Assembly (NCBI GenBank): GCA_027488135.1
Contig: JAIYCH010000108.1
Span: 1-64,000 of the forward strand
DNA: 64,000 nucleotides
Direction: 5' to 3'
Source: Saprospiraceae bacterium
GTDB taxonomy: Bacteria > Bacteroidota > Bacteroidia > Chitinophagales > Saprospiraceae
The position numbers were made by a program, and so were the translations under genes. Below the pieces are notes generated by a model. That model did not search any database, was not told where the DNA came from, and saw nothing but the letters and a program-made list of their open reading frames with translations. Positions 15,167 through 49,205 of this stretch are shown here, piece by piece; positions within the stretch are counted from its first letter, which is position 1, and every line of letters begins with the position of its first letter.

Positions 15167-16477
15167 TTAAATATCATCTAGGGAAAATCCTTTATAAAGG
15201 ATTTTATACCCTTCGAAATGACTCATCAAACAGGAGGATTTTTCTTCTAACTCTTTCAAATTGATATTATTTTTATTTCGTTTAACTTCAGCAAATAAAA
15301 CTATTTTATTAAGTTCATTAATAGCTACGATATCTATTTCATTCTGATTTTTCCCATCCCAATACGGACCGATGATATTGTATTTTTTTTCCGCTTTTAA
15401 CCTTTCAGTGAAATATTTTTCTAATATTTTGCCACTATAAGTGGTATAATCCCTTGAAATAATTTCTTTTAAATAATCTAAATTACCCATTTCGACAGCA
15501 CTCCTGTATTTGTAAATAAAACGGAACCAAAAATTTAAAAAATTATCCACTATAGCATATTTTAATTTCCTGCTATTAGGTTTTGAAAAAATGGGTCTTA
15601 CTTTTTTTATCAAGCCAAAATCCTTTTCCAGGCGGTCCAAAAATCCACCTGTTTGAATTTCCATAATAGATTCAATCTCTACCCTTGCTGTTTTCCCTGA
15701 AGCAATCAGCGACAAAATAGAAAAATAGTTTCCATATTCTTTACCAAATTCTTCAATCAAGACATGCTTTCCCTCATCTAAAAAAAGAGAATTTTCACTT
15801 AATATTAAATGCAGCATATCCGGCAATGAGAACGCCCTGGCCTGAACAAAAAGTTCTACATATTTTGCAACGCCACCTGTAAATAAATAAAAGGCCAACA
15901 AATCTTCTGAAGTAAATTGGGTAGAATAGTCGTTTAAAATAGTTTTGAGCGTTGGCAAATCAAATCCTTTCAAATGGATTCTATGGGTTGCTCTTCCAAA
16001 CAGAGGCTCCTTTGCATTTTCAAAAATTTTTGCCATCAATGAATAGACGGAACCACATAAAATTAAATTGAGCTTACTGTCTTGTTTATTACTATCCCAA
16101 ATATTTTGCAAATCAGAAAAAACAGCAGGATTTACCGAATAAAATTCCTGAAATTCATCTATGAACAAAGTAAAATGTCGATTTTTGGAAAGTTCCATGA
16201 TAAATCCAAATAATTCTTTGAAGGTTTTCATTTCTCCAAATAATGGCATTTGTAATCTATCCTTCACTTGTTCAGTAAATTCTTCACATAATAATACTTC
16301 ACTTTTTTTAGCAATAAAAAAATAAAGCATATCCTGCTTTTCTGTCGCTTTAATTATCAGACTGGTTTTCCCAATACGCCTTCTACCCACCACGAAAGTC
16401 ATTTGGGCAGTATCTACTGACCTATTTTCAATGCGGTCTAATAAGGCTAATTCAGATTCCCTGTTATAAAATTTCAT
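15167..16477 (-). CDS. AAA+ ATPase with C-terminal DUF234-type nuclease-like domain
   Basis: This 436-residue protein belongs to the archaeal-type ATPase/DUF234 group. Walker A is VGRRRIGKTSLI (residues 29-40), Walker B FTLFIDEFQEF, and a sensor-like CGSVYSLM follows. The C-terminus holds NEIDIVAINELNKIVLFAEV followed by K, matching the acidic and E-x-K positions of PD-(D/E)XK nucleases. Function is unknown for the family. It is the first of four such ATPases in 6 kb and is transcribed away from the rest. A 10-bp inverted repeat directly abuts its start codon. Confidence 0.88.
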   Translation of the reverse strand: MKFYNRESELALLDRIENRSVDTAQMTFVVGRRRIGKTSLIIKATEKQDMLYFFIAKKSEVLLCEEFTEQVKDRLQMPLFGEMKTFKELFGFIMELSKNRHFTLFIDEFQEFYSVNPAVFSDLQNIWDSNKQDSKLNLILCGSVYSLMAKIFENAKEPLFGRATHRIHLKGFDLPTLKTILNDYSTQFTSEDLLAFYLFTGGVAKYVELFVQARAFSLPDMLHLILSENSLFLDEGKHVLIEEFGKEYGNYFSILSLIASGKTARVEIESIMEIQTGGFLDRLEKDFGLIKKVRPIFSKPNSRKLKYAIVDNFLNFWFRFIYKYRSAVEMGNLDYLKEIISRDYTTYSGKILEKYFTERLKAEKKYNIIGPYWDGKNQNEIDIVAINELNKIVLFAEVKRNKNNINLKELEEKSSCLMSHFEGYKILYKGFSLDDI

Positions 16478-16478
16478 A

Positions 16479-16519
16479 ATTATCGCAATTCAAATTACAG
16501 TAATGCCGGTTGCGATAAT
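16479..16519. promoter_or_regulatory. Inverted repeat abutting the DUF234 ATPase start
   Basis: Perfect 10-bp arms ATTATCGCAA (16479-16488) and TTGCGATAAT (16510-16519) are separated by 21 bases, so the half-sites are about three helical turns apart. The left arm begins two bases upstream of the start codon. This is the expected form of an operator for a dimeric regulator, possibly the gene's own product. Confidence 0.55.
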
Positions 16520-16590
16520 AAAAATACGATTTAAATAGGAAAGAATGGGAATAAAAGGAGATCACAGGCAATAATCACAGAATAAGTATC

Positions 16591-16636
16591 ATTTATGTGT
16601 AAAAAATCACGTTTTGGACACTTATTTATGTATAAA
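16591..16636 (+). repeat. 33-bp-spaced direct repeat at an ATPase stub
   Basis: Two copies of ATTTATGTrTAAA (16591-16603 and 16624-16636) are exactly 33 bases apart; the second overlaps the ATG of the ATPase stub at 16628. The same 33-bp spacing recurs before the intact ATPase of the same subfamily at 16836, with a different sequence. Confidence 0.5.
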
Positions 16637-16690
16637 GCACTTCAGCATCAACTTATAGAATGGGAAAATAAACCCAACAGACTGCTATGA
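16628..16690 (+). pseudogene. N-terminal stub of a DUF4143-type AAA ATPase
   Basis: A 20-codon reading frame, MYKALQHQLIEWENKPNRLL, then stops. It matches the usual opening of this ATPase subfamily, where a short helical lead with EW and KxxR precedes the Walker A segment (compare YLYEWKISPVRKPLILRGAR in the intact gene 150 bases downstream). The frame ends exactly where the Walker A strand should begin. I read it as the remnant of a fifth ATPase whose body was lost. Translation of the short peptide cannot be excluded. Confidence 0.5.
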
Positions 16691-16763
16691 TACTCCCCAA
16701 AAATAGGACACCAGTTAAGACAATAAATAATACCTTTTAAAAAAAGAACCGTTCCATTTTGCC

Positions 16764-16817
16764 ATTTGGGCTTATTCTGTTACAAGATGAATAAATATTT
16801 GCCCTTATTATGTTACA
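16764..16817 (+). repeat. 33-bp-spaced direct repeat upstream of a DUF4143 ATPase
   Basis: Two 21-base copies, ATTTGGGCTTATTCTGTTAC(A) at 16764-16784 and ATTTGCCCTTATTATGTTAC(A) at 16797-16817, match at 18 of 21 positions and are offset by 33 bases. The second ends 18 bases before the ATG at 16836. The regular offset puts both copies on the same helix face, as in a promoter with repeated regulator sites. Confidence 0.6.
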
Positions 16818-16835
16818 TTTGATAAAAGTACCATC

Positions 16836-18212
16836 ATGGAATTTAAAAGAAACATCGAAGATTATTTATATGAATGGAAAATAAGTCCTGTTAGAAAGCC
16901 ACTTATTTTAAGAGGGGCACGCCAGGTAGGTAAGACTACTGTCATCAAAAAATTTGCTCGGTCATATGAAAATATTATTTCACTTAACTTAGAAAAGCCA
17001 GCAGATAAAAAATATTTTGAAGATTTTGATGATGTTAAAACCATATTGGAAGCTTTATTACTGGCAAAGAATATTCCGTCCCAAAAATCATCCAATACGT
17101 TACTATTTATTGATGAGATACAAGAAAGTCCAATAGCTATCCAATTACTTCGATATTTTTATGAAGAAATACCCACCCTCCATGTAATTTGTGCTGGTTC
17201 GCTCCTGGAATTTGCCATTAAAAATGTGAAAAGCTTTCCCGTCGGAAGAGTGTCCTTTTTATATTTACATCCACTGAATTTCCAGGAGTATTTAGAGGCA
17301 ATCGGCAAATTTGCACTTCTTGAACAATTAAAAGTATTACCTGTAAAACAATATGCACATCATACTTTAATGGCTGTATTTCATAGATATGCCATCATTG
17401 GGGGTATGCCAGAAATCATAAAAACAGAGTTAGCAAGTAACAACCTTTCTGATTTAACCATTATTTATGAAAGTATTTGGAGTACCTATAAAAACGATGT
17501 GGAAAAATACGGGTCCAACCCTACAGACCGACAAATTATCAGACATATTATGGATACCGCTCCATTAAGTTTAGATGAACGGATAAAATTCCAGGGGTTT
17601 GGCCATTCAAATTATCGGTCAAGAGAAGTAGGGGAATCATTCAGAACATTGGATGATGCAAAAATTATAAGATTGATTTATCCTACGACCGACGTACAAC
17701 CACCCATTAAAACAGATTTAAAGAAATCACCACGACTACAATTTTTAGATACTGGTTTGGTTAATTATTCTTTAGGCATACAAGCTGAAATGCTCTCGAT
17801 GACAGATTTGAATAGTGCCTATAAAGGTGCAGTAATCCCTCATTTGGTGACACAAGAATTAATATCGTTACAAAGCATTACAGCACACAAACCACATTTT
17901 TGGGTTAGGGAAAAACCGCAGTCCGATGCAGAGGTAGATTTGATTTATACGTTTAAAAACCTCGTTATACCCATTGAAATAAAATCAGGAAGTATGGGTA
18001 GTTTAAAATCACTTCACCAGTTTATAGAGGCAGCTGAACATCCATACGCCATTCGAATGTATGGTGGGAATTTAAAAATAGAAAAGGCAATAACACCTAA
18101 TAAAAAGCCATACCTGTTATTAAATTTACCCTATTATGCCGCCACGGTATTACCAGAATACATTGAATGGTTTCTCTCATTTGATTTGCCATCATTTTGC
18201 AAAACCCGGTAG
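16836..18212 (+). CDS. AAA_14/DUF4143-family ATPase
   Basis: This is a 458-residue protein with an N-terminal AAA_14 domain. Walker A is LRGARQVGKTTVIKKF (about residues 27-42), Walker B TLLFIDEIQESP, and the sensor CAGSLLEFA. A winged-helix-like middle follows, then a DUF4143 C-terminus with REKPQSDAEVDLIYTFKNL and PIEIKSG, the D and E-x-K of a nuclease-like fold. The family's biological role is not settled. It is intact, of normal length, and in the same subfamily as the stub just upstream. Its promoter carries a 33-bp-spaced repeat. The last codons lie within the 23-bp repeat tract that precedes another stub. Confidence 0.9.
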   Translation: MEFKRNIEDYLYEWKISPVRKPLILRGARQVGKTTVIKKFARSYENIISLNLEKPADKKYFEDFDDVKTILEALLLAKNIPSQKSSNTLLFIDEIQESPIAIQLLRYFYEEIPTLHVICAGSLLEFAIKNVKSFPVGRVSFLYLHPLNFQEYLEAIGKFALLEQLKVLPVKQYAHHTLMAVFHRYAIIGGMPEIIKTELASNNLSDLTIIYESIWSTYKNDVEKYGSNPTDRQIIRHIMDTAPLSLDERIKFQGFGHSNYRSREVGESFRTLDDAKIIRLIYPTTDVQPPIKTDLKKSPRLQFLDTGLVNYSLGIQAEMLSMTDLNSAYKGAVIPHLVTQELISLQSITAHKPHFWVREKPQSDAEVDLIYTFKNLVIPIEIKSGSMGSLKSLHQFIEAAEHPYAIRMYGGNLKIEKAITPNKKPYLLLNLPYYAATVLPEYIEWFLSFDLPSFCKTR

Positions 18213-18267
18213 TGAAAAGTTGCCAAATCCGGTAGTAAAAAGGTGCCAAATGCGTTAATTATGTTTA
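18199..18267 (+). repeat. 23-bp tandem repeat tract (3 units) before an ATPase stub
   Basis: Units begin at 18199, 18222 and 18245, exactly 23 bases apart. The first two share GC.AAA.CCGGTAGT.AAAAG; the third keeps GCCAAAT.CG.TA and then diverges. The tract starts inside the last codons of the preceding ATPase and ends 27 bases before the stub at 18294. Contiguous units without spacers rule out a CRISPR array. Confidence 0.65.
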
Positions 18268-18293
18268 TATTTAATCTTTAATTTTGCTATAAA

Positions 18294-18368
18294 ATGAAGA
18301 AAAAGAACTATTTACCCAGATTATGTGATTTTTCATTAAATACCAATGACTTGCTTAAATTAATTTAA
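18294..18368 (+). pseudogene. N-terminal stub of an AAA_14/DUF4143 ATPase
   Basis: A 24-codon frame, MKKKNYLPRLCDFSLNTNDL then LKLI and stop. The opening YLPRLCDFSL matches the start of the AAA_14 subfamily, in which a basic-aromatic strand with (R/K)xxD precedes GP..CGKT; compare KYRKRISDIELQRKL in the convergent gene next door. The frame ends before any Walker A. It lies 27 bases after a three-unit 23-bp repeat tract, as a real promoter would. Probably the remnant of a further ATPase. Confidence 0.45.
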
Positions 18369-19622
18369 TTAAGCACCCAATGATGCAAATGAAATGACGT
18401 TTACACCATCTTTTCGGGTATAACCCATTCCTGTTCCCGTAATGATGTTTAATGATTTTGGAGCAGGACATTTATCACTTGTAACCAATCTTGCTAATTT
18501 CAACAAATTTGCTGCGGCTTCCTCTATTTGTCCGCTGCCCAATTTAATCTCAAAGGCACACCAATCACCATTATATTTCTGCACGATACCATCTACTTCC
18601 AGTCCACTTGAATCTCGATAATGATAGACTTTGGCATCATTAGCCTGACTATAGACCCGAAGATCATGTATAACCATCGACTCAAATAAGAAACCAGCAA
18701 ATGGCAGATCATTTAATAAATTTTGTTGATTTACACCTAATGCAGCAACGGCCAATGAAACATCTGTAAAATGCCGCTTGGGTGAATTTCTCAAGGTATG
18801 TGAAGATCTGATATGAATATTCCAGGCTGGCTGATCCTCCAACATCATGAGTCGGTTCAAGGCATCTAAATAATTATATATAGTGGGACGTGAAAGCCCT
18901 ATACTTTCATGGGCTTTAATATCCCTTTCAAGTACTAAATTATCTACCATTGTGCTTGTATTTCGAGCCAGAGATTTCAACAAGCTTCGGACTTTCATAG
19001 GATCCCGGCGATTTTGAGACACCCTACTCATATCTACCTCTGCCAATAATTCGACATAAGCTCGATTTACTTCCAAGGCCTGATCCACCTTACTATCCAT
19101 TAAACTTGGGAAGCCACCTTTGCAAATTTGCTCTATAATTAACTCAAGCTCGGTTCGTTCGTTTTGAACCTCAACAGGAAATCCCTGGAATAAATCAGCC
19201 AGTTTTATGGTAGCATCAGACATTCCCAACTCTTGCCATGACATTGTGCGCATATCAACGATGGTAAATCTACCCGCACCAGAACGCATATTGACATTTT
19301 CCTCAGGATTAGCAGAACCTGTCAAAATAAACTGGGCAGTCTTTTTTCTATCGTCCACTTCATGTCGCACCTGGTTCCAAAGCTTTGGTATCACTTGCCA
19401 CTCGTCTATCAAGCGCGGTGTTTCACCTAATAATAACCGTTTAGGTGCAGTATCAAACAAAAGTTGATATTGCTCATCCCGATCGACATAAATAACACTT
19501 CGTGCAAATTGTTTAGCAGATTCCGTTTTACCGCAAGCCTTTACCCCACGAATTAAAACGGCCCCAGAGGCTTCTAATTTTCGTTGCAATTCTATGTCAG
19601 ATATTCGTTTCCTATATTTCAT
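18369..19622 (-). CDS. AAA_14/DUF4143-family ATPase
   Basis: This protein has 417 residues from the preferred start MKYRKRISD; seven more codons are possible upstream. Walker A is IRGVKACGKTESAKQF, Walker B PRLIDEWQVIPKLW, and the sensor FILTGSANP. DUF4143 follows, with TIYNYLDALNRLMMLEDQPAW and the nuclease-like SSGLEVDGIVQKYNG with CAFEIKLG. It belongs to a different AAA_14 subfamily from the 16836 gene: the pre-Walker strand is RGVKACGKT rather than RGARQVGKT. Three perfect-phase 23-bp repeats lie about 37 bases upstream of this start. Role unknown; possibly accessory DNA maintenance or defence. Confidence 0.9.
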   Translation of the reverse strand: MKYRKRISDIELQRKLEASGAVLIRGVKACGKTESAKQFARSVIYVDRDEQYQLLFDTAPKRLLLGETPRLIDEWQVIPKLWNQVRHEVDDRKKTAQFILTGSANPEENVNMRSGAGRFTIVDMRTMSWQELGMSDATIKLADLFQGFPVEVQNERTELELIIEQICKGGFPSLMDSKVDQALEVNRAYVELLAEVDMSRVSQNRRDPMKVRSLLKSLARNTSTMVDNLVLERDIKAHESIGLSRPTIYNYLDALNRLMMLEDQPAWNIHIRSSHTLRNSPKRHFTDVSLAVAALGVNQQNLLNDLPFAGFLFESMVIHDLRVYSQANDAKVYHYRDSSGLEVDGIVQKYNGDWCAFEIKLGSGQIEEAAANLLKLARLVTSDKCPAPKSLNIITGTGMGYTRKDGVNVISFASLGA

Positions 19623-19658
19623 AATTAATTGATTATTTATCAAATATACGGTTATTTT

Positions 19659-19727
19659 ACAGATTAGAAGGGTTTTACTTTACAGATTAGAAAGATTTTA
19701 CTTTACAGATTAGAAGAGTTTTACTTT
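19659..19727 (-). repeat. 23-bp tandem repeat tract (3 units) upstream of an AAA_14 ATPase
   Basis: Three contiguous units begin at 19659, 19682 and 19705. Each reads ACAGATTAGAA, three or four variable purine-rich bases, then TTTTACTTT, with at most two differences between units. A fourth unit starts at 19728 but breaks down after ACA. The tract lies just upstream of the minus-strand ATPase ending at 18369. Its period equals that of the tract at 18199, although the sequences are unrelated. Confidence 0.8.
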
Positions 19728-19755
19728 ACATATTATTAAACATGTCCTTAAAACT

Positions 19756-19869
19756 ATGATTATGGAGCCAATCATGGAAAGAATATCTGGGCGGAAATTG
19801 CTTACCAAGCGACTAAAGCTAAAGGAAGCGGAACTGCTGGACATCTATGGCCGCCGCCGCAAATACTAA
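19756..19869 (+). pseudogene. N-terminal stub of an AAA ATPase cut at Walker A
   Basis: A 37-codon frame starts MIMEPIMERISGRKLLTKRL and ends LLDIYGRRRKY then stop. In the archaeal-type ATPase family the N-terminus reads (E/D)R..E...L followed by (A/V)IYGRRRVGKT. Here the match runs up to YGRRR and breaks at the point where VGKT should follow. Base composition is more GC-rich than the flanks. It is the third N-terminal ATPase remnant in this island. Confidence 0.5.
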
Positions 19870-19930
19870 AATTGAATTAATAAAATGCAAAATTTGTTAA
19901 TAATTGCATTTTTTCAGTGCAAAATTAGTT

Positions 19931-19966
19931 TATACTTTTTATGGTTATAACCATAAAAAGTATAAT
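19931..19966. promoter_or_regulatory. 36-bp perfect palindrome upstream of an AAA_14 ATPase
   Basis: The half-site TTATACTTTTTATGGTTA is followed at once by its exact reverse complement, with no loop, 32 bases before the ATG at 19999. It could bind a dimer or, in RNA, form an 18-bp hairpin in the leader. Two TGCAAAATT copies (19886 and 19918) precede it. Confidence 0.7.
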
Positions 19967-19998
19967 TTTTTTAGTATTTTTATGTTTAAAAACACAAA

Positions 19999-21213
19999 AT
20001 GATTAGAAGGCCTTTTTATTTAAAGGAACTGGAACAGTGGATAGACAAACCGCTGGTGAAAATACTAACAGGCATAAGGAGGTCAGGTAAATCGACCATA
20101 TTACTGCTCCTTAAAGAAGTTCTTGGTGAAAAGGGAATCTCTGAAAATAATATCATTGCCCTAAATTTTGAAAGTTTTACCACTGAGCATCTGAAAAACG
20201 CAACATCATTGTATGCGTATTTAGCGGGGCAGCTTACAAAGGATGAAAAGATTTATATTTTGTTGGACGAAATTCAGGAGGTCCAGGATTGGGAAAAAGT
20301 AGTTAACTCGCTATTGGTGGATTTTAACGTTGATGTTTACCTTACTGGGTCAAATTCTCATTTATTGTCGTCAGAGTTAGCTACCTATTTAGCGGGCAGA
20401 TATATAGAAATACCTGTTTATACCTTGTCTTTCAAAGAATATTTACTTTTCAAAAGTGTATATCAAACTGGCGTATCAACTACAAAAGAGTCATTTGTAA
20501 CCTACTTGAGAAAAGGAGGATTTCCTGTAATTCATACTGCAAGTTACGATGAAGATACTACTTATAAAGTTATTCGGGATATTTATGCCTCTGTCCTGCT
20601 ACGAGATACTATACAGCGTTATAAAATTAGAGATATTGAACTTTTGGAACGGGTCACTCGCTTTGCTTTTGACAATATTGGTAATACATTTTCCGGAAAA
20701 AGTATTTCAGATTATTTTAAAAGCCAGTCGCGAAAAACGGATGTCAACACCATTTACAATTATTTGTCTGCCTTAGAGGGTGCATTTATTTTATATCGGG
20801 TATCCCGTTTTGATATCAAAGGAAAGGAAATTTTAAAGACGCAAGAAAAATTTTTTGTAAGTGACCTTTCTTTGCTCTATGCCATGTTGGGCTATCGCGA
20901 TAGCATGATTGCTGGAATTTTGGAAAATGTCGTTTTTTTGGAACTTAAGCGAAGGGAATATAAAGTTTATATTGGCAAATTAGATAGCCGGGAAATTGAT
21001 TTTATTGCCGAAAAACAAGGAAAAAAAATCTATGTTCAAGTTGCCTACAAATTAGAAAATGAAGCTACTGTACATCGAGAATTTAGTCCCTTATTGGCTG
21101 TTTCAGATCAATATCCAAAGTATGTAGTTACGATGGATGAATTTTGGAAAGAAGATGTGGAAGGGGTAAAACATTTGCAAATTCACGATTTTTTGTTATG
21201 TGACAGCTATTAA
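19999..21213 (+). CDS. AAA_14/DUF4143-family ATPase
   Basis: This is a 404-residue protein, intact and of family length. Walker A is LTGIRRSGKSTILLLL (residues 22-37), Walker B YILLDEIQEVQDW, and the sensor YLTGSNSHLL. The middle contains SYDEDTTYKVIRDIYASVL, a winged-helix-like segment. DUF4143 ends with LDSREIDFIAEKQGKKIYVQ. The nuclease-like site is E-I-D...V-Q-V, with glutamine where other members have E-x-K, so cleavage activity is doubtful. It forms a third AAA_14 subfamily in this island (GIRRSGKST) and is headed by a 36-bp palindrome. Confidence 0.9.
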   Translation: MIRRPFYLKELEQWIDKPLVKILTGIRRSGKSTILLLLKEVLGEKGISENNIIALNFESFTTEHLKNATSLYAYLAGQLTKDEKIYILLDEIQEVQDWEKVVNSLLVDFNVDVYLTGSNSHLLSSELATYLAGRYIEIPVYTLSFKEYLLFKSVYQTGVSTTKESFVTYLRKGGFPVIHTASYDEDTTYKVIRDIYASVLLRDTIQRYKIRDIELLERVTRFAFDNIGNTFSGKSISDYFKSQSRKTDVNTIYNYLSALEGAFILYRVSRFDIKGKEILKTQEKFFVSDLSLLYAMLGYRDSMIAGILENVVFLELKRREYKVYIGKLDSREIDFIAEKQGKKIYVQVAYKLENEATVHREFSPLLAVSDQYPKYVVTMDEFWKEDVEGVKHLQIHDFLLCDSY

Positions 21214-21218
21214 AAAGC

Positions 21219-21258
21219 GCGAATGCCATGGAAGAGGTGGAATACCATTCGCCCCTAC
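21219..21258. repeat. REP-like inverted repeat between convergent genes
   Basis: GCGAATG (21219-21225) and CATTCGC (21246-21252) form a 7-bp inverted repeat, followed by CCCTAC. This is a diverged member of the GGGCGAATG/CATTCGCCC family also seen near 21891, 22961 and 23077. It lies between the convergent ends of the ATPase and the PIN remnant and could act as a terminator. Confidence 0.5.
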
Positions 21259-21558
21259 TTTAATTTTAGACACATTTCATCAGGAGTCAAAACAACCAAT
21301 TCGCTTGTTTTGAAATCCTTCGTATTTCTTGTAACAATATAATTAATTCCTGGAATAGAGGAAGCACAAATCATCTGTATTGCGTCTTCAAAGTCTTTAT
21401 GAATTGAACGCAAACCCTTTTTTAGCACATCTAAATCAACAGGAACCACATCAAGAAGCGTTATAAGAGTTAACAGAATTTCTCTTAATTCCATTTCAGT
21501 AACATATTTTTTAAAATATATCGATAATAATATTAGTATCAAGAAAAACCTTTATCAT
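21255..21558 (-). pseudogene. Broken PIN-domain (VapC-like) toxin
   Basis: The gene starts at the ATG overlapping the antitoxin stop (ATGA) and reads MIKVFLDTNIIIDIF, the N-terminal PIN strand with its first catalytic aspartate, then hits TAA. The rest continues in another frame as ELREILLTLITLLDVVPVDL and HKDFEDAIQM, then NYIVTRNTKDF, the C-terminal half of a PIN domain with its later acidic residues. About 40 to 45 codons of the usual 135 to 140 are missing between the two. The toxin is therefore disrupted by a deletion with a frameshift. Start and C-terminal identity are clear; the size of the gap is estimated from family length. Confidence 0.8.
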
Positions 21559-21800
21559 AACAGGTGTTTTTTTTCAATGGCTGACCTTAATTCCTTTTCC
21601 TCGTCAAAATCTGCTGGTAATTGAACCGAACCAACTAATTTCCTGAGCTTAGGAGACAAGTCCACTTTATTATCTTCTTGCGTTATGGTCTCAAGATAAT
21701 TTTCAATTAATTCGGAGAGACTACGTCCCGTTTTTTTTGCGTAAGATTTAGCCCTTTCTATAATTGCCTTTTCAACGGTCAAAGTTAGTTTACTCGTCAT
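21555..21800 (-). CDS. DUF6364-like ribbon-helix-helix antitoxin
   Basis: This is an 81-residue protein. The N-terminal KLTLTVEKAIIERAKSYAKK followed by TGRSLSELIENYLETI is the beta-strand plus two helices of a ribbon-helix-helix DNA-binding fold. The C-terminal tail (LSPKLRKLVGSVQLPADFDE) is the part that normally wraps the PIN toxin. Its stop overlaps the toxin start by four bases (ATGA), the usual antitoxin-toxin coupling. With the toxin broken, the antitoxin may persist as an orphan. Confidence 0.85.
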   Translation of the reverse strand: MTSKLTLTVEKAIIERAKSYAKKTGRSLSELIENYLETITQEDNKVDLSPKLRKLVGSVQLPADFDEEKELRSAIEKKHLL

Positions 21801-22021: not shown

Positions 22022-22258
22022 ATGAAATCACTGGGAAACTTTCTCAAAGAAAAACGAAAACAAGCTGGACTAACGCAATTAGCCTTTGCAGAAAGAGCCG
22101 GCGTTGCACTAACTGTGATAAGAAAGATTGAACAAGGCAAAGGCAATTTACAATTAGAAAAAGTAAACCACGTACTTTCCATGTTCGGTCATTCCCTTGC
22201 TCCTGTAGCTAACAAAGACATTGAAAAAAATCAAATCAATGACGATGAGAACAGCTGA
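22022..22258 (+). CDS. hipB: HipB-like XRE-family antitoxin
   Basis: This 78-residue protein is almost entirely a Cro/C1-type helix-turn-helix: MKSLGNFLKEKRKQAGLTQL followed by AFAERAGVALTVIRKIEQGK and LQLEKVNHVLSMFGHSLAPV. The last segment is typical of HipB of tripartite HipBST modules. It should repress its own operon and neutralise the HipT kinase together with HipS. Its stop lies 14 bases inside the next gene. An inverted repeat sits just upstream. The downstream toxin genes are both damaged. Confidence 0.85.
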   Translation: MKSLGNFLKEKRKQAGLTQLAFAERAGVALTVIRKIEQGKGNLQLEKVNHVLSMFGHSLAPVANKDIEKNQINDDENS

Positions 22259-22577
22259 AGTGTTTTACCAAGACGTCAGAGCAGGTCTTTTGACTGAAAC
22301 CAATGAAGGGCATTTTACTTTTCAATATGACGAACAATACGTTGTTGATTATCCCAATCAGTTTTTAACCTTCACCATGCCAGTTGTTAAATATCCATAT
22401 CATGACAAGCATTTATTTTCTTTTTTTGAAGGACTCATTCCTGAGGGTTGGCTTTTAGACATTTCTAAAAGGCATTAAAAAATCAACCCAAATGATAGAA
22501 TGGGTTTATTACTGGCTTGTTGCCAAAACTGTATCGGAGCAGTTAGCATAAAACCTTTAAACCAGGGCAATGAATAA
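22245..22577 (+). pseudogene. HipS-like protein (HipA N-terminal subdomain) with in-frame stop
   Basis: Starting at MRTAEVFYQDVRAGLLTE, the frame shows the HipA N-subdomain fold: VVDYPNQFLTFTMPV, then FFEGLIPEGWLLDI. A TAA at 22476-22478 interrupts it after SKRH. The same frame then continues for 32 codons as KINPNDRMGLLLACCQNCIG plus AVSIKPL, which is the expected end of HipS, and stops at 22575-22577. It overlaps hipB by 14 bases and the next gene by 8. One base substitution is enough to explain the break. A start two codons earlier is possible. Confidence 0.85.
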
Positions 22578-22884
22578 GAGATATTTATACTGCTATGGGG
22601 AAATGGCAGATTTGGAGCAATCCGAATACCACGCTAAATGTAGTTTGTCTTTTTTTGGAAGTAATAAACCACCAACTTTAAAATACGCTTTAAGCGAAAT
22701 GAATGAGTTGGCTAAAGAAGTGGTTACTCATCGTATTGCTCTGCCCGGTGTACAACCCAAGCTCTCCCTTTCGACTATTGATGATGTGTTAAACAAAAAA
22801 AATAACCCGAGACTTACCGTGGTGGGAACTTTAGGTGGAAATTATACGGCGCAACAACAGGTTCTCAGAATAGAAACTGCTTAA
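22570..22884 (+). pseudogene. Truncated HipT-like kinase (N-terminal third)
   Basis: The frame gives 104 residues. It opens with YLYCYGEM and EYHAKCSLSFFG, the cysteine/histidine segment at the start of HipT-like proteins, and reaches the ATP-loop motif ALPGVQPKLSLS. It ends soon after RLTVVGTLGGNY in an unrelated tail. Full HipT proteins have about 300 residues, so the catalytic aspartates and most of the kinase fold are missing. It cannot be an active toxin. No remaining C-terminal coding sequence was seen downstream. Confidence 0.8.
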
Positions 22885-48961: not shown

Positions 48962-49205
48962 TTTTAAATACAAAAATATACTGCAATAATAATGATAATT
49001 TTGGAATAAATGGTTCATTTTTATCATTGACAGCTTAAAGGCCATTAAGTACGCCGTGATCTTTTTAGGAAGATTGATCATTTATTGTAGCTATATCTAT
49101 AAAAATACAAAAAACACCCATTATTTAAGATATAACTACAATAATCCACTCTCTTTGCTATTTATCAATAAAAGTTAAATTATACCCTACAACCTGTCGG
49201 GGAAA

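Follow-up and report, generated by a model that had tools for sequence, protein, structure and literature searches.

PDC-S01, a candidate defence type in which an ATPase is fused to a PD-(D/E)XK domain, is described as the fourth most common defence type in prokaryotes (29,494 cases in bacteria and 9,986 in archaea), a class in which most candidates await experimental validation (PMC12988326, in excerpt). Among individual loci in rumen genomes it is likewise the most frequent (PMC13356809, in excerpt). In Thermus thermophilus, RNA of the AAA_14/DUF4143 gene TT_P0211 was up 6.6-fold with a plasmid, an increase confined to cells with Argonaute (PMC4406477, in excerpt). The nearest regulatory parallel that we found is the RptR-controlled island, where direct repeats over a defence promoter are bound by a repressor (PMC12255303, in excerpt). 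Here we describe repeat arrays at a locus of a Saprospiraceae bacterium (GCA_027488135.1, contig JAIYCH010000108.1, positions 1 to 64,000; hereafter the window, 64,000 nucleotides in length), which carries four intact ATPase-nuclease genes between 15167 and 21213 in a 4.2-Mb genome. The proteins match the PADLOC models PDC-S01 and PDC-S27; the feature noted here is the arrays upstream of the genes, with a spacing that follows the ATPase subfamily. Within the excerpts of the open-access PMC literature consulted, we found no mention of such arrays or of a spacing rule for PDC-S01 or PDC-S27 candidates.

Repeat spacing and ATPase subfamily

The original prediction, made from the window, held that repeat geometry follows ATPase subfamily, and proposed enrichment upstream of homologues as a check. 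We gathered family members by protein alone, set start codons by rule (the ATG nearest 26 residues before Walker A) and assessed significance with dinucleotide-preserving shuffles, calling a repeat at z>4. In a first set, 169 deduplicated members were compared with 391 control regions, taken upstream of neighbouring genes at those loci. A direct or inverted repeat was called in 120 of the 169 members versus 32 of the 391 controls, and member offsets clustered at 22/23, 32/33 and 39/40, whereas control offsets were scattered. A second set began with 306 profile hits, which gave 287 members and then 196 once those at least 75% identical were removed; a repeat was found in 138.

Within the second set, geometry differed by subfamily. 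Members of the 16836 type, named like the other types after a window gene (Table 1), had offsets of 32/33 in 74 of 97 cases (19 with no repeat, 3 with a palindrome only, 1 other). For the 18369 type, 15 of 25 were at 22/23 or 45 (8 none, 2 palindrome only), and for the 19999 type, 6 of 12 were at 39–41 (4 none, 1 palindrome only, 1 at 32). In the GPRQ-GKT branch, hereafter the palindrome branch, 23 of 50 members had a palindrome only (20 none, 4 at 32/33, 3 other). The remaining 12 members showed mixed geometry. When four geometry labels were mapped onto a FastTree protein tree with 134 tips, 13 changes were required, compared to a minimum of 42 and a mean of 49 in 200 shuffles. Neither outcome that would have refuted the original prediction was seen: enrichment over controls is present, and spacing varies with the ATPase that follows. 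A scan of named genomes for the 33-bp type gave a best offset of 32 or 33 at p<0.05 in 54 of 64 scored genes (64 of 80 loci were scored, the rest being dropped by pattern, strand or length filters). This type occurs under titles of Bacteroidota, Desulfobacterota, Spirochaetota, Acidobacteriota and others, with the caveat that titles of metagenome-assembled genomes (MAGs) may mislead. The pattern is real, general and predictive.

For the family as a whole, it is exceedingly improbable that the repeats reflect chance or low-complexity AT-rich sequence. The upstream regions are indeed AT-rich, and the 32 controls that pass z>4 show that such calls arise elsewhere, but the dinucleotide shuffles, the scattered offsets of the 391 neighbour controls, the tree signal and the plasmid members (below) all argue against it, and we rejected chance or composition as an explanation.

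A strict rule of one clade, one geometry was likewise rejected. One member of the 16836 type (L006) is without a direct repeat and has, by eye, a palindrome (inverted-repeat z 3.6); a palindrome-branch member (L243) has a strong 22-bp array (z 20); and the third exception is the window's own gene 4, which is the 19999-type member at 32, with 41 one point behind, and which was labelled 32/33 in the subfamily count. Other arrangements were seen as well. Two loci (L258, L259) have arrays spaced by 53 bp together with long inverted repeats (z 16–23), possibly a fifth geometry of about five turns. In a gammaproteobacterial MAG (L155), copies of one unit spread over 88 bp are arranged both as direct repeats (33 bp) and as inverted ones.

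The analysis was extended to 24 plasmid loci, fetched by protein match with the upstream DNA unseen and chosen for organism spread among the matches listed (90 of 784 records). Their hosts are alpha- and gammaproteobacteria, Chlamydiota, Bacillota, Fusobacteriota and Bacteroidota. The expected best offset was obtained in 18 of 21 members, with z>4 in 10 of these 18: 23, 45 or 46 in all six of the 18369 type (z>4 in 4), 32/33 in five of six of the 16836 type (z>4 in 3), and 39/40 in seven of nine of the 19999 type (z>4 in 3). Of the three palindrome-type loci, one had a strong palindrome (z 11.8) and another a direct repeat of 13 bp (z 4.6); the third showed no repeat. Elsewhere in the survey, a GC-rich contig (L027; G049:C96) of a genome assigned to the same order encodes an ATPase 65% identical to Sulfitobacter plasmid genes; because these best plasmid relatives are alphaproteobacterial, the contig may be foreign or a contaminant. 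By eye, a short palindrome like TGAATGA...TCATTCA stands directly before the start codon both on T. thermophilus plasmid pTT27 (L300) and in a locus from a different phylum (L074), and falls below the z>4 cut because it is short.

In the window itself, direct repeats were scored across the whole 64 kb in slices of 200 bp at 50-bp steps, with z computed as the score relative to shuffles. The 15 best slices, which overlap and represent four repeats with offsets of 23, 32, 41 and 33, all lie within the ATPase cluster, and the sixteenth is at 49051. Tandem Repeats Finder (TRF) returned just two arrays with scores >50 in the 64 kb, those of stub 2 and gene 3, both of period 23. Pfam domains bear out the prediction of four intact AAA+ ATPases in 6 kb, and the PADLOC matches of the four proteins extend over nearly the full-length profile, with E-values of 4e-192 (gene 2), 1e-157 (gene 4) and 1.2e-60 (gene 3) for PDC-S01 and of 1.4e-48 (gene 1) for PDC-S27. 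The predicted 23-bp tandem repeats at stub 2 and gene 3 were recovered, as was the palindrome of gene 4, where direct offsets of 32 (score 18) and 41 (score 17) had gone unlisted. A 33-bp offset had been proposed at both RGARQVGKT-type leads; it is significant at gene 2, whereas at stub 1, where the second copy extends into the start codon, it is present but not significant alone. Similarly, the 10-bp inverted repeat of gene 1 is present, here and in two sister loci (L023, L024), but does not reach significance alone. Two of the six local examples, stub 1 and gene 1, are thus weak alone and may each be due to chance.

Table 1. Genes, stubs and repeats of the ATPase cluster in the window
Feature	Position	Strand	Description
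Gene 1, ATPase-nuclease	15167..16477	-	DUF234/ATPase_2, both domains above Pfam curated cut-off; PADLOC PDC-S27
Inverted repeat, 10 bp, upstream of gene 1	16479..16519 (arms 16479-16488 / 16510-16519)	.	z 2.1 alone
Two 13-bp copies, offset 33, before stub 1	16591..16636 (16591-16603 / 16624-16636)	+	12/13 matches, z 1.9
Stub 1	16628..16690	+	20 aa, lead of 16836-type ATPase; from sequence
Gene-2 array	16764..16817 (16764-16784, 16797-16817)	+	Two 21-bp copies 33 bp apart, z 5.1
Gene 2, ATPase-nuclease	16836..18212	+	AAA_14+DUF4143 above Pfam curated cut-off; PDC-S01; 33-bp clade
Stub-2 tandem array, 23 bp	18197..18251	+	2.4 copies, TRF score 82, z 11.7
Stub 2	18294..18368	+	24 aa, lead of 18369-type ATPase
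Gene 3, ATPase-nuclease	18369..19622	-	AAA_14+DUF4143 above Pfam curated cut-off; PDC-S01; 22/23-bp clade
Gene-3 tandem array, 23 bp	19652..19735	-	3.7 copies, core TGTAAAGTAAAA, z 24.8
Stub-like frame	19762..19869	+	Ends ...LLDIYGRRRKY; possible truncated ATPase lead, assigned by reading alone
Imperfect inverted repeat, 26 bp	19865..19929	.	77%
Palindrome, 36 bp, upstream of gene 4	19930..19965	.	Perfect, z 5.7
Gene 4, ATPase-nuclease	19999..21213	+	AAA_14+DUF4143 above Pfam curated cut-off; PDC-S01; 39-41-bp clade

Repeat units, promoters and the winged-helix region

In the 33-bp clade (74 genes), the repeat unit has a core of about 17–20 bp, near ACCCTGACTTTGTTACA, and copies are spaced by 33 bp in 128 cases, 32 bp in 24, and 31 and 34 bp in 7 each. 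Position-matrix chains gave a single copy alone in 9 of the 74 genes. The last copy lies at a median of 32 bp from the start codon, and in 25 of 62 genes it coincides with TAnnTTTG, the Bacteroidota −7 box, compared to a mean of 2.0 and a maximum of 6 in shuffled sequences (counting the consensus box only). In the window, the last gene-2 copy overlaps the promoter-like TACATTTG. The sites in this clade thus appear to overlap the promoter of their own gene, an overlap that points to autoregulation. By eye, a divergent sub-branch of the clade (L205, L206, L213, L296, L298, L299) has a different core, near AAAAGTGT, with copies 32 or 33 bp apart.

In the palindrome branch (L033, L030, L238, L249, L250, L251, L240, L252), a 35–41-bp palindrome often ends 0–3 bases before the start codon, and an operator there would cover the transcript start or leader. 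A hairpin so close to the start codon is what one would look for if the repeats acted as RNA leader structures controlling translation. We regard this as very improbable, given that the direct repeats of the 33-bp clade stand upstream of or over the −7 box, with strict spacing.

The core of the unit is conserved in gene 3, and for the two units searched, those of genes 2 and 3, copies above control are confined to their own arrays. In four sister species, 2 of 48 positions vary in the 12-bp core of the gene-3 array versus 17 of 44 in the 11-bp spacer (Fisher p 5e-5); in the flank that precedes the array, 14 of 64 positions vary. Elsewhere in the genome, the gene-2 unit gave 12 hits compared to 13 for its reversed control (at most 2 mismatches), and the gene-3 unit 3 hits compared to 3 (at most 3 mismatches); neither is in excess. 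A wider regulon was accordingly rejected for these two units, as they have no genomic copies above the reversed-pattern control.

Which part of the protein might read such sites? The AlphaFold2 model of the gene-2 product (pLDDT, a per-residue confidence measure, 89; predicted template modelling score 0.88) comprises an AAA+/STAND ATPase, a winged helix and a C-terminal domain. By our reading of the model, the predicted winged helix spans residues 229–303 (helix 229–245, strand 249, helices 255–257 and 262–274, strands 278–281 and 300–303). Realignment with VIA-align showed that the closest chains to residues 1–315 are 2QEN (Z 17.1, 4.0 Å, 270 residues) and 2FNA (Z 16.1, 3.5 Å, 263 residues), followed by plant NLR and CED-4 chains. 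Foldseek had placed Orc1/Cdc6 chains first, but these fall below the archaeal ATPases and the STAND chains after realignment, and therefore no initiator role is claimed. Modelled alone (pLDDT 73.5), the C-terminal part retrieved four McrBC chains first (best E 9.7e-4, template modelling scores 0.43/0.44). PD-(D/E)XK residues are invariant in 12 rows each of the 18369 type (E314, D344, E358, K360) and the 16836 type (E366, D368, E381, K383), and the C-terminus is predicted to be a PD-(D/E)XK-like nuclease domain, McrC-like in the model. For the four window proteins, no Rep family was among the Pfam matches. PHROGs gave one weak match, NCBIfam one match far under cut-off, and a sequence search of the PDB P-loop stretches only.

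To compare unit and protein, we related unit distance to protein-column distance, allowing for overall divergence, in 62 of the 74 array-bearing genes of the 33-bp clade. Among nine regions compared, residues 249–274 stood out (p 0.004, uncorrected); a weaker signal was seen for nuclease region 346–400 (p 0.018) and none for the AAA+ domain. The top columns were 263 and 264, and the best column reached 0.282, the 95% point of 60 kinship-ignoring permutations being 0.273. R263 goes with ACA at the unit end in 37 of 47 genes, K263 in 0 of 9; of the genes with A262, 6 of 7 have a purine at unit position 15, compared to 8 of 52 with S262 (Fisher tables of 56 and 59 genes, respectively, with values that ignore kinship). 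On the tree, K/R263 provides four independent pairs, with 3.2 in the expected sense and 0 in the opposite one (200 pairings). Members outside this set of 62 behaved similarly. Within the main branch, 11 of 13 R263 rows have ACA in both copies shown (L137 has it in one, L085 in neither), and the sole K263 row (L153) is without ACA; these rows exclude the window's own copy and include near kin of members inside the set. A similar pattern of co-variation can be seen by eye in the 18369 type.

Taken with the gene-2 and gene-3 units being private to their own arrays and with core conservation, the co-variation at residues 262–263 supports self-recognition, as the original prediction proposed when it suggested that each ATPase recognizes its own array. 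In our judgement, the arrays are probably operators read by the encoded protein itself.

Several observations weigh against this interpretation. The two residue columns were chosen from the same data, so the co-variation is a strong suggestion rather than proof. Helix 262–274 alone is not enriched (p 0.28), sliding windows 256–266 and 358–368 tie, and nuclease windows 352–368 are as strong as those of the helix. Four independent pairs are too few to reach p 0.05, and the A/S262 contrast is weaker still on the tree (2.5 pairs in the expected sense, 0.2 in the opposite, 1.3 with no difference). The code is unreadable in the divergent sub-branch, where R263 occurs with a different core (L205, L206 and the second gene of L179). 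Moreover, 58 of the 196 members are without a repeat at z>4. There is also no significant repeat at the AAA_14-type gene of T. thermophilus pTT27 (L300), which we take to be TT_P0211, and this makes the hint from the inducibility of TT_P0211 a weak one. Finally, repression and activation are not separable from sequence.

A separate regulator, be it a host factor or a dedicated repressor, could also read the arrays. Defence genes can have such regulators, as RptR and the three direct repeats of its Escherichia coli defence island illustrate (PMC12255303, in excerpt). We read the neighbourhoods of 23 of the 24 plasmid loci (L292 is unannotated), and an HTH (helix-turn-helix), MerR or XRE-type gene lies within 1.5 kb in four of them (L293, L297, L299, L303). 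However, these neighbouring regulators are of differing kinds and none recurs; the only recurring partner noticed in the 23 neighbourhoods was ScpB/DUF1403, in two Rhodobacterales. Units differ between paralogues of one genome, and the two that were searched are nowhere else above control. Spacing tracks the ATPase clade across phyla, and changes in the unit go with changes in the winged-helix region of the ATPase itself. We consider a separate reader unlikely.

Gain and loss of genes at the locus

Comparison with sister species marks the site as a hot spot at which ATPase genes are gained and lost. Two of them (L280, L281) have lost gene 2 by a deletion between 16832 and 18111; it took place at a 4-base match, spared the array and the 3' end, and is not a clean excision. 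In another (L286), a gene that shares the first 12 residues of the stub-2 lead is open to the contig end and is preceded by a near-identical 23-bp unit (offset 23, z 16.8). The same locus matches the stretch over stub 1 (16553–16657) at 82%. The stub-2 array (18201–18279) is missing in three sister loci (L279, L280, L281), and the start codon of the stub is also changed in the latter two. Arrays can therefore outlive genes; that they always do so was rejected, as the gene-2 array is kept in L280 and L281 and the stub-2 array is missing in L279 to L281. In a further sister species (G006), gene 4 and the third stub-like frame are separated by an additional open reading frame that has a Walker A motif, and the imperfect inverted repeat at this place in the window may be the left-over operator of that frame.

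Such turnover, along with the presence of homologues on many plasmids, the iteron-like geometry and the initial ranking of Orc1/Cdc6 by Foldseek, would fit arrays that serve as work sites, i.e. replication iterons, a centromere, or loading sites for moving or keeping their own gene. But the only loss studied arose by deletion at a 4-base match, the window proteins have no Rep domain, and in the 33-bp clade the array lies over the promoter. These data make work sites quite improbable. The working idea of the original prediction, iteron-like self-recognition or autoregulation, is supported, self-recognition by the sequence evidence above and autoregulation by promoter overlap, but replication iterons find no support.

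Beyond the cluster, at 21255–21800 (minus strand) and 22022–22884 (plus strand), a toxin–antitoxin-like pair of small genes and an adjoining short HTH gene, with HipA-like fragments after it, were noted by eye. The ATPase cluster may be part of a wider accessory island.

Proposed self-read operators and described systems

If the arrays are operators read by their own gene product, the following scheme can be envisaged. Each gene would encode a single-gene candidate defence system, consisting of a STAND/AAA+-type ATPase, a winged helix and a C-terminal PD-(D/E)XK-like nuclease. The protein would bind, via the winged helix and as an oligomer, a set of ~12–20-bp sites at its own promoter. The shape of the oligomer would set the spacing, such that 22/23, 32/33 and 39–41 bp correspond to about 2, 3 and 4 turns of DNA, or would call for a palindrome. 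Occupancy would cover the promoter and keep the nuclease scarce in healthy cells. Infection might then change the state of the protein (by nucleotide exchange, recruitment or loss of binding) and bring about release, a guess that would fit a defence gene. Binding, repression, release and the defence role are all inferred from sequence.

Alternatively, the array could serve as an antitoxin. The ATPase-nuclease would be held inactive, in fixed register, on its private array, and displacement from the array or its destruction during infection, or loss of the array, would free the protein to assemble elsewhere and cut. We give this version a small but appreciable chance. If true, the array would act as a catch, making this a one-gene immune system with a DNA safety catch, and the 2-, 3- and 4-turn catches would represent separate assembly types.

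Returning to self-read operators, a private, alignable array names the likely DNA ligand of the protein, and points to the domain that may read it and to two residues that may set specificity. Array spacing predicts assembly geometry by subfamily. The arrays also constitute a natural data set for a winged-helix recognition code, and make it cheap to detect such genes and their remnants and to assign them to types.

How does this arrangement compare with known systems? Plasmid iterons are direct repeats of ~22 bp, accompanied by inverted repeats; a single initiator protein with a winged helix recognizes both and regulates the gene that encodes it. The repeat geometry and self-control are alike here, but there is no Rep protein and an origin is not part of the finding. 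In toxin–antitoxin and restriction C-protein systems, a DNA-binding antitoxin or C protein controls the promoter of its own defence locus, whereas here ATPase, winged helix and nuclease are combined in one polypeptide. Both of these kinds of system are named in PMC12255303. The archaeal ATPases 2QEN (PABY2304) and 2FNA (SSO1545) and the STAND ATPases NLR/CED-4 are alike in fold, and in the literature consulted we found no array tied to them. RptR is a separate small protein that acts through 9-bp repeats with one conserved site (PMC12255303, in excerpt); here, the effector itself is the apparent reader, the sites differ between genes, and the spacing is 22–41 bp. Autoregulation through operator repeats is thus known. 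The spacing rule and the gene-private sites are unusual, and they occur in very common, uncharacterized defence candidates.

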